Of a stretch of DNA of 41,294 nucleotides, positions 21,328 through 25,784 are shown one piece after another. The translations under genes were made by a program, and so were the position numbers. A model generated the notes under the pieces. It did no database searches. It was not told the DNA's origin and saw only the letters and a program-made list of their open reading frames with translations. The stretch is from Candidatus Parcubacteria bacterium (GTDB lineage: Bacteria > Patescibacteriota > Minisyncoccia > UBA6257 > 2-01-FULL-56-20): positions 1-41,294 of the forward strand of contig DAIEHA010000008.1 in assembly GCA_027355945.1 (NCBI GenBank), in the 5' to 3' direction. Position 1 is the first letter of the stretch. Each line of letters starts with the position of its first letter.

Positions 21328-22005
21328 TCAATGCACCGACACGTCGCGGACGATCTGCGCCGCCACCGTACCGTTCGCATCGACTCCGTACACGCGGACG
21401 CTATCGCCGCCCGTAATTCCGGAGAACGGAAGCGTCGCCCACACGCGGTTCACGAGCTCCGTATTCGCAGCCGTGTTCACCGTGTAGACCGTACCGTTCG
21501 CCGTGGTCAGCGTGAAGGAGGAACCGCTCACATTGCTCGCCGTGCCGATATAATCGCGCGGCGCCGCAGAACGGATCCCTTGCGCGGACTGCGCGTTCGC
21601 CTTCTCCTGTGAGGAGAGTGCTGCGCGATAGGTCCAATCCCGGACAAGCGTGGCATTCACGGTCCAGTTGGCATTCGTCGCCACCGAACCCTGGACGCCC
21701 ACGAAATCACCCGTCTTGAACTGATTCGCATAATCCGTCGCCGCCGCGGGGAGGACCGTTGCGGATGCGGGAACGTCCACCGTCCACGTACCGCCCCAGC
21801 TCTCCACCGTGATCGTACCCGCCGAAACGGATGCGATTGTGCCACGGAGAAGGATGTTCCCTTTCGGGCCCACTTGAACGATCTGCGGCTGTACCGTCGA
21901 GGCCACGGGAGCCGGGACCGCCGTCTGAGCTCCTGCAACCATCGCCATCGCGAGGATCGCTGCGCTCGCAGCAATGCCCGCACCTGCCGTCAATTTCCTG
22001 TTCAT
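21328..22005 (-). CDS. Exported protein with two DUF5666-like repeats
   Basis: A 225-residue protein with a signal peptide (MNRKLTAGAGIAASAAILAMAMVAGAQT, cut likely after AGA or AQT). Two similar beta-rich units follow: LRGTIASVSAGTITVESWGGTWTVDVPASATVLP at about residues 52-110 and IGTASNVSGSSFTLTTANGTVYTVNTAANTELV at about 150-225. The pattern matches DUF5666-type small beta-barrel repeats seen in many CPR secretomes, whose function is unknown. It is the last gene of the electron-transfer operon order (FMN protein, reductase, Pro/Ala-rich anchor, this gene). An AATACT box (22019-22014) 8 nt upstream may also give it its own message. Confidence 0.8.
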   Translation of the reverse strand: MNRKLTAGAGIAASAAILAMAMVAGAQTAVPAPVASTVQPQIVQVGPKGNILLRGTIASVSAGTITVESWGGTWTVDVPASATVLPAAATDYANQFKTGDFVGVQGSVATNANWTVNATLVRDWTYRAALSSQEKANAQSAQGIRSAAPRDYIGTASNVSGSSFTLTTANGTVYTVNTAANTELVNRVWATLPFSGITGGDSVRVYGVDANGTVAAQIVRDVSVH

Positions 22006-22047
22006 GGTTATTGAGTATTGTTTTTACGACCTTTCCTTTTTTGCCGA

Positions 22048-22371
22048 TCAATTATCGCCATATCCCTCCCCTCCATCGCCTCCCGCCGGACGCGCCACCG
22101 TATGCGATATCGCAGGCGTCGGTGCGGGTGCGGGTGCGGAAGTTGATGCGGCGGCATTCCCCGACGTACCGGATGCCGGAGCCGCAAGGGCCGCCGCGGG
22201 CGCAGCTGCCGTTGCAGCTGCCGGAGTGCCTGACGCCGCACTCACCGCCCCCGGAGCAGCGGAAGGAAGCACGGACGTACTCCCGGGCTGGAACCACGAT
22301 GCTGCCGCAATAAGCCCTCCCACGAGAAGCGCATTCACGACGAAAAGCCAGTCATCCCCGGGGTCGTTCAT
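22048..22371 (-). CDS. Small membrane-anchored Ala/Pro-rich protein
   Basis: A 107-residue protein. It has a short N-terminus, one membrane segment (about residues 9-27, LFVVNALLVGGLIAAASWF), then an extracytoplasmic low-complexity tail rich in Ala, Pro, Ser and Thr that ends in a Gly/Asp segment. No enzymatic motif is visible. The tail contains an APAPAPTPA block nearly identical, in protein and DNA, to the linker of the FMN-binding protein of the same operon. The start at 22371 is set by TATAAT (22384-22379), 7 nt upstream; the box covers the end of the reductase gene. The gene begins 16 nt after the reductase stop. Confidence 0.7.
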   Translation of the reverse strand: MNDPGDDWLFVVNALLVGGLIAAASWFQPGSTSVLPSAAPGAVSAASGTPAAATAAAPAAALAAPASGTSGNAAASTSAPAPAPTPAISHTVARPAGGDGGEGYGDN

Positions 22372-22387
22372 ATCCTTCATTATATAC

Positions 22388-23914
22388 TTACGCAAAACCC
22401 GGGAAAAAGTCACTCTTGATCCTGAACCGGGAAACGCCCATGTCTGTCAATGTTTTTTCGAAGGCTGCAACCATCGCATGAGGGCCCGAAATATAGAAGG
22501 TACGGCTCCGATAATCCGGTATCTGGCTTTCGATAAGGCCCGCATCGATCTTTCCCGCATAGGTTCCGGCCGCAGAACCCTTCCCGTCGGTCACCGCATA
22601 GATCGTCCGTATCCCGAGCTCCTTCTCCGCCCGATCGAGGATATCCCTGTATGCGATGTCGCCTGCGGTCCTGTTCGAATACAGCATGACGACATCCCTC
22701 CGTTCGCCCTTGTCGAGGAGATAGTGGACCATGCTCCGGAACGGAGTGATGCCGATCCCTCCTGCGATGAACACGAGCTTCTTCCTCGGATCCCGCGGCA
22801 GCACGAACCCTCCTGCAAGATGCGCCACGGAGATCTTGTCCCCCTTCTTCATTGCGGCAAGCGTGCGCTTGAACGTGCTCGGCTGCGGATAGAACTTCAC
22901 CCCGAGCCTCACCACATCCTCCGTGGGCGCCGATGCGAGCGTGAAATACCTCCTGTTGCCGCGATCATCGGGGTCTTTATGCGCGAGCGTCCACTCCATG
23001 TATTGTCCCGGCGCGAACGCGAATCTCCTGTCCGATGAAAAGACGAAATCATACGCGTCCTTCGCCGCCTCTTCGATGCCGATAAGGGTGAGCATGAACC
23101 GCCCCTTGGGGCTTACGAGATAGGAGAACACGTTCCCGAACAGAAGCGCGAGCTCCGGCGAAAGATAGAACGATCCTATATGGATGTTGGGAGCAAACAG
23201 GAATCCGACAATGGCCCCGTAGGCGATGCGCAGCGGACGGTTCGGTGGGGTCGTGAGCGGCTCCGTGAGCATCACGAATGCGAAAAAGAAGAAGGCGGAG
23301 TGGAGGATCGTCTGATCGATGGCGGTCAGCTGGTTCCCTGCCCCCGCCGTCGCAGCAGCCGTCACGAAGAGCGCGGCCGCGAATGCCGCCACGAGGTCCG
23401 TCCGCTGGATCTTCCGCACGACCATGAAGCCGCCCGCAAGCACGAAGGGCAGGAGGGCGAGATTGCCGCCCACCCACCATGTCGCCTCCCTGCCGATGAG
23501 GAGTGCGGACAGCGCCACACCGAACGCAGCGGGATTGAAAAGATGCCGCTTCCCTATCGCAAAAAGATACTTCGAGGCCGTCGCCCATATGGAGATGAAG
23601 ATCAGGAATCCTATGCCGGCGACGTCGTTCGCCGCTACGGGAGAGGCGATGAGCGCGAGGATGAATGCGGTGATATAGACCGATTCGACGTTCGTGACGG
23701 CATCGAACGCTTTTGCGAAAACCCAGTTCGCAGCCATGCTCGTCCCCATGATGACCGCCGCCGAGAACACGAGCGATGCGGGACCGAAGGGAACAAGACC
23801 GAAGAAGCTGAACACGAACGACACCCCGAGAAGGGCCGCAAGATAGTACAGGATGAGACGATACATCGTCGTCCTGTTCAGAATGCCATCGATCCATGCG
23901 AGCATCGCTTCCAT
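22388..23914 (-). CDS. RnfD/NqrB-like membrane domain fused to a ferredoxin-reductase-type flavoprotein
   Basis: A 508-residue fusion. Residues 1 to about 275 hold eight to ten membrane helices and the RnfD/NqrB-type segment GKRHLFNPAAFGVALSALL. Residues about 280-508 form a cytoplasmic FAD/NAD(P)H reductase domain, with GQYMEWTLAHKD, RRYFTLASAPTE (FAD binding), FIAGGIGITPFRSMV (nucleotide binding) and YISGPHAMVAAFEKTL. There is no Cys, so no 2Fe-2S domain as in NqrF, and no SGAT motif for covalent FMN in the membrane part. It should carry electrons from NAD(P)H through flavin into or across the membrane, most simply to the FMN-binding protein encoded 9 nt upstream. The ATG at 23914 has no SD. 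Confidence 0.9.
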   Translation of the reverse strand: MEAMLAWIDGILNRTTMYRLILYYLAALLGVSFVFSFFGLVPFGPASLVFSAAVIMGTSMAANWVFAKAFDAVTNVESVYITAFILALIASPVAANDVAGIGFLIFISIWATASKYLFAIGKRHLFNPAAFGVALSALLIGREATWWVGGNLALLPFVLAGGFMVVRKIQRTDLVAAFAAALFVTAAATAGAGNQLTAIDQTILHSAFFFFAFVMLTEPLTTPPNRPLRIAYGAIVGFLFAPNIHIGSFYLSPELALLFGNVFSYLVSPKGRFMLTLIGIEEAAKDAYDFVFSSDRRFAFAPGQYMEWTLAHKDPDDRGNRRYFTLASAPTEDVVRLGVKFYPQPSTFKRTLAAMKKGDKISVAHLAGGFVLPRDPRKKLVFIAGGIGITPFRSMVHYLLDKGERRDVVMLYSNRTAGDIAYRDILDRAEKELGIRTIYAVTDGKGSAAGTYAGKIDAGLIESQIPDYRSRTFYISGPHAMVAAFEKTLTDMGVSRFRIKSDFFPGFA

Positions 23915-23923
23915 TGCCGTGGA

Positions 23924-24544
23924 CTATGCCTTTGCCTGTGAGAGAGCCGATGCGAGCGACTGCTGGAAGCCTTCGCTCGTGAACGTGGCGCCCGAGATGA
24001 TGTTCACGTTCGCACTCTGGGCCGCCACTGCTTCCTGCGTCAGATACGGCATCGCTTGTTCGTTTATATATACCGACGTGCTATGACTGTTCGGATACTG
24101 AAGGAATTTCACATCGGTCAGTTTGCCGCCCTGCACGATCGCCTCGACCTGTACCATACCGTAATAGGCATCCACTGCGCCTCCGGTGTACGTTCCATCA
24201 TTATACTGTCCCTGAGGTTTGGGCGCAGGCGTCGGTGCGGGCGCGGGTGCGGGAGCCGGTGCGGGCGCTGACTTTTGCGTCTTTGACTGCGTTCCCGTAT
24301 TCGCCTGCTGCGTCGCAGATTGCGATGTGCCGGATGTGCCTGATGATGCTCCCGATCCCCCCGTAGGGGGATTGCTGCCCGAGGATGATGCTCCCGTGAA
24401 TGCAAGGGTTCCCGACGAACCGCCGCTTCCCGCCGCTACGGGAGCTGCCACGGAGGGACCCACCGACGCGGACCCTTGGTTCATGAAGATCATATATGCC
24501 GCCGATGCCGCAATGAGTCCGAGGGAGATCAGGAATTTTTTCAT
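23924..24544 (-). CDS. Membrane-anchored FMN-binding protein (RnfG/NqrC-type domain)
   Basis: A 206-residue protein with an N-terminal signal anchor (MKKFLISLGLIAASAAYMIFM, no lipobox Cys). A long Ser/Gly/Thr- then Ala/Pro-rich linker (about 25-112) leads to a C-terminal FMN-binding domain (about 113-206). NIISGATFTSEGF carries the SGAT motif whose Thr is the covalent FMN site in RnfG, NqrC and related proteins. Attachment would need an ApbE flavin transferase, which is not in the window. It is the first gene of the operon with the RnfD-like reductase and is divergent from an ECF sigma gene. TATAAT lies at 24579-24574, leaving a leader of about 23 nt without a clear SD. Confidence 0.88.
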   Translation of the reverse strand: MKKFLISLGLIAASAAYMIFMNQGSASVGPSVAAPVAAGSGGSSGTLAFTGASSSGSNPPTGGSGASSGTSGTSQSATQQANTGTQSKTQKSAPAPAPAPAPAPTPAPKPQGQYNDGTYTGGAVDAYYGMVQVEAIVQGGKLTDVKFLQYPNSHSTSVYINEQAMPYLTQEAVAAQSANVNIISGATFTSEGFQQSLASALSQAKA

Positions 24545-24657: not shown

Positions 24658-25278
24658 ATGACGCTCCGCATCGCGCTTATGGCGAACCAACACGATATCA
24701 CCGAGGAATCCCTGGCCGCCGCATCCGATGAGACGCTCGTCCCCCTCGCCATTGCGGACGACCGCCATTTCGAGGTCCTTGTCGAACGGTATGAACCCCG
24801 GTTGCGGCGCTATATCATGCGCTTCATCAACTGCAGCCAGGAGGACGCGAAAGATATCGTACAGGACACCTTCATCAATGCCTACCGCAACCTCAACGAC
24901 TTCGATACCGGGCTCAAGTTCTCATCGTGGATCTACCGCATCGCGCACAACGAAGCAGTGAGCCATTTGCGACGCATCACGGCCCGGCCATCGGCCCCAT
25001 GGGATGACGAGAAGCTCGAGGCGCTCGCCTCCGATGCGGACATCGAACGGGAGCTTCACCGCACGATGGATAACGCGGCGGTCCGCGCCGCCGTGGACCG
25101 GCTCGATGCAAAATATCGGGAGGCGCTCGTGCTCCGCTATTTCGAGGATAAAAGCTATGAGGAGATCTCCGACATCCTCCGCAAACCGAAAGGCAGCGTC
25201 TCCTCGCTCATCACCCGGGCGAAGCGCCTCCTCGTCGATACGGTGAAAGAAACCGGCCGCGCGCACGTACAAGGATAA
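24658..25278 (+). CDS. ECF-type RNA polymerase sigma factor
   Basis: A 206-residue sigma-70 family protein with only regions 2 and 4. Region 2 (about 35-105) has RHFEVLVERYEPRLRRYIMRF, DIVQDTFINAYRNL and FSSWIYRIAHNEAVSHLRR. Region 4 (about 140-195) has LDAKYREALVLRYFEDKSYEEISDIL and a helix-turn-helix KPKGSVSSLITRAKRLL. The first ATG (24658) lies 8 nt behind a TACTAT box preceded by CGGACA at 17 bp; a second ATG at 24679 is possible. Two membrane-protein genes follow at short spacing, and an electron-transfer operon is divergent, so regulation of envelope functions by a membrane-held sigma is plausible. Confidence 0.93.
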   Translation: MTLRIALMANQHDITEESLAAASDETLVPLAIADDRHFEVLVERYEPRLRRYIMRFINCSQEDAKDIVQDTFINAYRNLNDFDTGLKFSSWIYRIAHNEAVSHLRRITARPSAPWDDEKLEALASDADIERELHRTMDNAAVRAAVDRLDAKYREALVLRYFEDKSYEEISDILRKPKGSVSSLITRAKRLLVDTVKETGRAHVQG

Positions 25279-25292
25279 CGATACACCCCATC

Positions 25293-25784
25293 ATGTCGGA
25301 TACCAGCGAAAAGATCATCAAGGAGATCCATGAGCGGCATGTGACCCACCGTCCACGATGGCATTTTTTCATGCGCGATGCATCCGTGTGGACGGCGCTC
25401 GTCGCCGCCATCGCGTTCGGCGCACTTTCCCTCAGCATCGAAGAGGCCGTCATCGAGCGCGGCCTTGCCGTCGGAGGCGCATATGGGCCCCTCCATTTCA
25501 TCCTTCAAGGCACCTCCCTCCTCTGGATCCTCTCCTCCGCGACATTCGTGGTGCTTGCATTCCTCAACCTTCGGCATATAAAGGAAGGGTACCGCTTCCG
25601 CGCATGGTGGATCGCGATCGGCATCGTTGCCATGGTGGTCACCTTCGGCCTGCTCTTCCGCCAGGAAGGGATCGGCGATCGCGCGGAATCGCTGCTCGAG
25701 CATAATGCCTTCTATAAAGGAGCCCTCCACATCCACTATCCCGATGATCGACCCCAACAGCCGTACGGAGCAGGAAATCCATAA
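25293..25784 (+). CDS. Membrane protein downstream of ECF sigma, candidate anti-sigma factor
   Basis: A 163-residue protein with a charged cytoplasmic N-terminus (EKIIKEIHERHVTHRPRWHFFMRD) and three membrane segments (about 31-52, 63-85 and 98-116). A 40-residue tail at the end is Pro/His-rich. It has no zinc-binding anti-sigma motif. Position immediately after an ECF sigma gene (14 nt), and a soluble N-terminus followed by membrane helices, suggest an anti-sigma role. This is inference from context only. Its last 41 nt overlap the next gene. Confidence 0.7.
   Translation: MSDTSEKIIKEIHERHVTHRPRWHFFMRDASVWTALVAAIAFGALSLSIEEAVIERGLAVGGAYGPLHFILQGTSLLWILSSATFVVLAFLNLRHIKEGYRFRAWWIAIGIVAMVVTFGLLFRQEGIGDRAESLLEHNAFYKGALHIHYPDDRPQQPYGAGNP

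Follow-up and report, generated by a model that had tools for sequence, protein, structure and literature searches.

According to the prevailing view, Patescibacteria have no electron transport chains. A row of genes for flavin-binding redox proteins in such a genome raises the question of where electrons would enter this system and where they would leave it. The row lies in a stretch of 41,294 nucleotides (the window), which is contig 26 of a 0.73-Mb genome that is 92% complete and has its relatives among the Patescibacteria (Parcubacteria/Kaiserbacteria-type MAGs). The first-pass annotation had grouped the four genes into a single minimal electron path from NAD(P)H to the outside, related to Rnf and Nqr, with possible outer scaffold or acceptor roles for the last two proteins. 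The electron path is the reading with the best support and corresponds to a class of systems already published, while the four-gene unit with its additional roles did not hold up. We consider it likely, with a probability of roughly 0.8, that the first two genes encode an Nqr/Rnf-like exporter that passes electrons from NAD(P)H to the outside; its direction and cofactors are those that we infer below.

Gene content of the cluster

The four genes are consecutive on the minus strand, from 24544 to 21328. All are predicted by a codon-usage gene caller, and Pfam domains in the first, second, and fourth bear out the domains assigned to them earlier. The first gene (23924..24544) encodes an anchored, NqrC/RnfG-like FMN_bind protein of 206 amino acids (PF04205, E = 9e-8), with a long Ser/Gly and Pro/Ala linker and the flavinylation motif SGATFT. 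The second (22388..23914) encodes a fusion of 508 amino acids, in which an N-terminal NqrB/RnfD-like membrane domain (PF03116, NQR2_RnfD_RnfE, E = 4.5e-8) is joined to a C-terminal cytosolic FAD/NAD(P)H reductase (FNR) domain (PF00175, NAD_binding_1, E = 4e-15). The third (22048..22380, with the longest ORF extending to 22413) encodes a small one-helix anchored protein with a Pro/Ala-rich tail and a Gly/Asp end; it matches no Pfam family and has the lowest gene-caller score of the four, yet it is conserved in eight aligned loci. The fourth (21328..22005) encodes an exported DUF5666 protein (PF18914, E = 3e-6), and gpmI and enolase genes follow downstream.

None of the four proteins contains a cysteine, which extends to the last two what had been said of the first two. 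Related fusions carry 0 to 4 cysteines each, mostly one or none, and no conserved cysteine was found among the invariant or nearly invariant columns of their alignment. The inference that the system has no Fe-S step thus stands across the fusion family.

The fold of the fusion was predicted for its two halves with AlphaFold. The membrane half alone (pLDDT 87.5) matched 15 PDB chains at E < 0.001, every one of them RnfD or NqrB, with TM-scores to the query of at most 0.72. The reductase half has an FNR fold, nearest to flavohemoglobin reductase domains, GcoB, and NqrF; its residues 476-477, Cys-Gly in many FNRs, are an invariant Ser-Gly. The membrane half is compact: its NPA motif is followed by the next basic motif after 41 residues, versus 116 in Escherichia coli RsxD. 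The 75-residue loop that is absent from the fusion includes the position of Thr187 of RsxD, which we take to be the flavinylated residue, and no SGAT was found in the membrane half of any of 78 relatives. Because both the loop and the motif are missing, the fusion appears to lack the covalent flavin of RnfD and NqrB.

Conservation of the FMN protein and the fusion

Of the 80 public-genome loci closest to this one, 77 have an FMN gene next to the fusion gene, often with a gene for the flavin transferase ApbE in between. In a family of 38 genomes, 17 have ApbE and 15 have FMN_bind; each genome with FMN_bind also has ApbE and the fusion. Across the phylum, the fusion was detected in 48 of 287 Patescibacteria genomes and in 64 of 380 genomes of a further sample that overlaps the first, or about 17% of the genomes sampled. 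When 44 loci from the sample of 287 genomes were read, FMN_bind and ApbE were each nearby in 27, and the remaining 17 had no recognizable FMN neighbor. The first-pass annotation had named a genome without ApbE and without any flavin incorporation, or fusions always found without the FMN protein, as arguing against the path. The genome does encode ApbE, and the FMN gene accompanies most fusions in both the nearest and the phylum-wide loci.

The other two genes are kept less widely. The third gene is present in 8 of 8 aligned loci of the window's type (type B, see below), whereas among the loci compared, a DUF5666 gene follows the fusion only in the window species and a 92%-identical sister. The four genes are therefore not one unit, and conservation of their order, a check suggested by the first-pass annotation, extends to the first two genes and, within type B, to the third. 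The DUF5666 protein is best regarded as a local neighbor. An outer scaffold or acceptor role for the last two proteins is not supported, as neither has a recognizable redox site.

A second operon and the source of ApbE

The window cluster contains no apbE gene. The first-pass annotation had suggested looking for ApbE elsewhere in the genome, and it was found on contig 3, in a paralogous operon with the order FMN_bind-ApbE-fusion (L007:4594-7543). We refer to this copy with ApbE as type A and to the window copy without it as type B. The two fusions are about 55% identical and occupy clearly separate positions in the tree, suggesting that they are either old paralogues or separate acquisitions.

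Flavinylation of the window's FMN protein would depend on this transferase acting in trans. The motif SGA[TS] is present in nearly all of the 77 FMN proteins that adjoin related fusions. The residue three positions before the motif serine is Asp in 49 of 74 relatives, Ser in 12, and Asn in 11; it is Asn in the window protein, which makes it uncertain whether the one ApbE found would flavinylate it. Extra stand-alone short FMN_bind proteins are encoded near the type-B cluster in two relatives (L041:9806-10207 and L068:4759-5187).

Proposed electron path

The exporter reading is supported by the genes, their folds and motifs, the conserved pairing of FMN protein and fusion, and the presence of ApbE in the genome. 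In the path that we propose, the cytosolic FNR domain would transfer hydride from NAD(P)H onto FAD, after which electrons would traverse the membrane by way of the compact RnfD/NqrB-like domain. Their carrier there is probably a flavin bound non-covalently, given the loss of the covalent site. From it they would pass to FMN on the threonine of the anchored FMN_bind protein, presumably attached there by ApbE of the type-A operon. With its long Pro/Ala linker, this protein may be able to contact first the membrane domain and then an acceptor on the outside, for which Fe(III), oxygen, a cytochrome b, and the surface of a host cell are candidates. Flow would be one-way and outward, with neither ferredoxin nor an Fe-S step involved.

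Two other readings were weighed against this exporter. The pair could instead feed a short respiratory chain as its entry complex: NAD(P)H would reduce the fusion, the fusion the FMN protein, and the latter a membrane cytochrome b, from which electrons would continue to a terminal oxidase instead of leaving for a diffusible or extracellular acceptor. A b6-like cytochrome b is encoded 7 kb from the type-A operon (L007:12507-13916), and related genes occur in two relatives, directly before an FMN-ApbE-fusion operon in L143 (2024-3295) and near the type-B cluster (L083; L042:11197-12576). In addition, COX1 is present in six family genomes (L062-L067; G014, G017, G029, G036, G018, and G021), all of which have the fusion, and in most of them it is surrounded by bo3-like subunit genes. 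The cytochrome b genes in this genome and beside the L143 operon, together with the bo3-like oxidase of some relatives, keep this a live rival. We nevertheless regard it as unlikely: COX1 was not found in the window genome (92% complete), only two of the scanned loci have cytochrome b close to the operon, and the co-occurrence of COX1 and fusion is a count that ignores relatedness.

The homology of the membrane half to RnfD and NqrB could also mean that the pair is the remnant of a full Rnf/Nqr ion pump that needs subunits encoded elsewhere. This is very improbable: membrane subunit and reductase form a single fused protein, every relative checked has lost the covalent flavin loop, and FMN(-ApbE)-fusion units recur across phyla with no RnfA/E or NqrD/E-type gene noticed alongside. 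A complete Rnf or Nqr complex was likewise rejected for the window cluster, which has no genes for the other subunits and lacks the flavinylation loop. The exporter shares with Rnf and Nqr the RnfD/NqrB fold, an NqrF-like reductase, and an NqrC/RnfG-like FMN protein, but differs from them in its two-protein layout, its unflavinylated membrane subunit, and the absence of Fe-S subunits among the genes seen. It would not be expected to pump ions or to return electrons to the cytosol.

Relation to known flavin-based systems

In Méheust et al. (2021, eLife, PMC8238504), "NQR/RNF-like systems" are defined by the same fusion in a flavinylation cluster. A total of 127 such clusters are described there, mainly from Actinobacteria and CPR, and one-way flow from NAD(P)H to the outside is proposed for them. 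A 2024 preprint (PMC10979944) models the Nqr/Rnf-like complex and reports that the covalent flavin site is absent from the membrane subunit. The window pair is one of these systems. It has the PF03116-PF00175 fusion with the NqrB/RnfD flavinylation site lost, an adjacent PF04205 gene for the NqrC/RnfG-like protein, and ApbE available in the genome, and it occurs in CPR. The NAD(P)H-to-outside reading is therefore not new. In contrast to the published systems, ApbE is encoded outside the cluster, in the second operon, and the cluster has a conserved Pro/Ala-rich third gene and a divergent ECF sigma/anti-sigma-like gene pair. The literature passages on Nqr/Rnf-like systems available to us mention neither the link to an ECF sigma gene nor the third gene with its Pro/Ala-rich product, nor the Mesorhizobium clade described below. 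The newer points are the sigma/anti-sigma-like pair, its homologs next to the operon of further lineages, and the Hyphomicrobiales clade nested among the Patescibacteria.

Kinship with flavin-based extracellular electron transfer (EetA/EetB/FmnB/PplA) is an analogy only: both have an ApbE-type transferase (FmnB) and a flavinylated surface protein, but here the membrane protein is of the RnfD/NqrB type, with no obvious quinone step. According to a study of acid-mine CPR genomes (PMC12153355), FmnB was found in 54% of genomes, with EetA, EetB, FmnA, and PplA typically missing. ApbE serving an Nqr/Rnf-like system, as in the window genome, could explain part of these FmnB matches, which offers an alternative for genes counted as incomplete flavin-based electron transfer. 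As about one in six sampled genomes has the fusion, host-dependent, fermenting Patescibacteria may commonly use such export of NAD(P)H electrons as a redox valve.

A divergent ECF sigma factor and a putative anti-sigma factor

Upstream of the operon and divergent from it, on the plus strand, are genes for an ECF-type sigma factor (24658..25278; Pfam matches Sigma70_r2 and r4_2) and for a membrane protein that is a putative anti-sigma factor (25293..25784), in a group that also includes a DUF2127 gene. The membrane protein has strong relatives in exactly eight family genomes, which are also the eight with type B; in type-B loci with intact flanks its homologs adjoin the ECF sigma and FMN genes. 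A genome of the same genus with type A only has no relative of it. Further lineages have, directly before the FMN gene, a sigma gene and a gene for a membrane protein of 232-239 amino acids with an outer domain; these longer proteins are homologous to the short one (hhalign 97%). Judged from gene order, the pair looks like the regulator of the exporter operon, which would provide a testable handle on when such a valve opens.

An ECF sigma gene lies beside the operon in 18 of the about 52 Patescibacteria among the 80 nearest loci, and the link recurs in several parts of the fusion tree. Phylum-wide, the count was 6 of 44 versus about 4 expected (p = 0.15), which is not above chance, so that a general coupling was rejected and the link was retained as a lineage feature only. 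In the divergent gap, GCGTATWAT-like elements point both ways; they were rejected as a shared promoter motif, as they may be ordinary -10 boxes. Identity of the anti-sigma outer domain with DUF5666 was likewise rejected, the match being below threshold. In the outer domain of the longer proteins (L090, L104, L106, L107, L115, L138, L140, and L156), a D-x-D-x-D-x-D stretch is conserved that is perhaps a metal-binding loop.

Fusions with other candidate partners

Beside fusions that lack an FMN neighbor, cupredoxin genes were found in 6 of 17 loci, versus 0 of 27 loci with FMN (Fisher p = 0.0018; several families): L182:7870-8310, L187:3444-3953, L188:4533-5045, L191:6523-6930, L196:4633-5058, and L197:6721-7206. 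In a second, hold-out sample, none of 9 FMN-less fusions had a cupredoxin gene beside it. Pooled over both samples, the association has p = 0.004, a value that includes the sample on which the hypothesis was formed and ignores kinship. Replacement of the FMN protein by cupredoxin in these relatives is thus a lead only. At L244 (6602-7788), DsbA-like and VKOR-like genes follow an FMN-less fusion, possibly as a further partner type.

A broader scheme, which we put forward tentatively and think doubtful as a whole, would join these features. Type B would be a second module that can be switched, a duplicate of the exporter that lacks an ApbE of its own, has the Pro/Ala-rich protein as its dedicated surface protein, and is controlled by the ECF sigma factor. 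The membrane anti-sigma factor, short here and longer elsewhere, would sense the state of the cell surface, and the RnfD-FNR fusion would be an exchangeable export core for different anchored carriers (FMN, cupredoxin, and perhaps thiol proteins).

A Hyphomicrobiales clade within the Patescibacteria fusions

A single clade inside the Patescibacteria diversity (99% SH-aLRT) unites the fusions of Mesorhizobium, Bauldia, and Devosia. This nesting implies gene transfer between phyla, in either direction given a tree rooted only at the midpoint, and some MAG bins may be misassigned. The fusions of this clade (L117-L158 from Mesorhizobium, Bauldia, and others; L105 and L113 from Devosia) are 57-60% identical to the window protein and are encoded in an FMN-ApbE-fusion operon.
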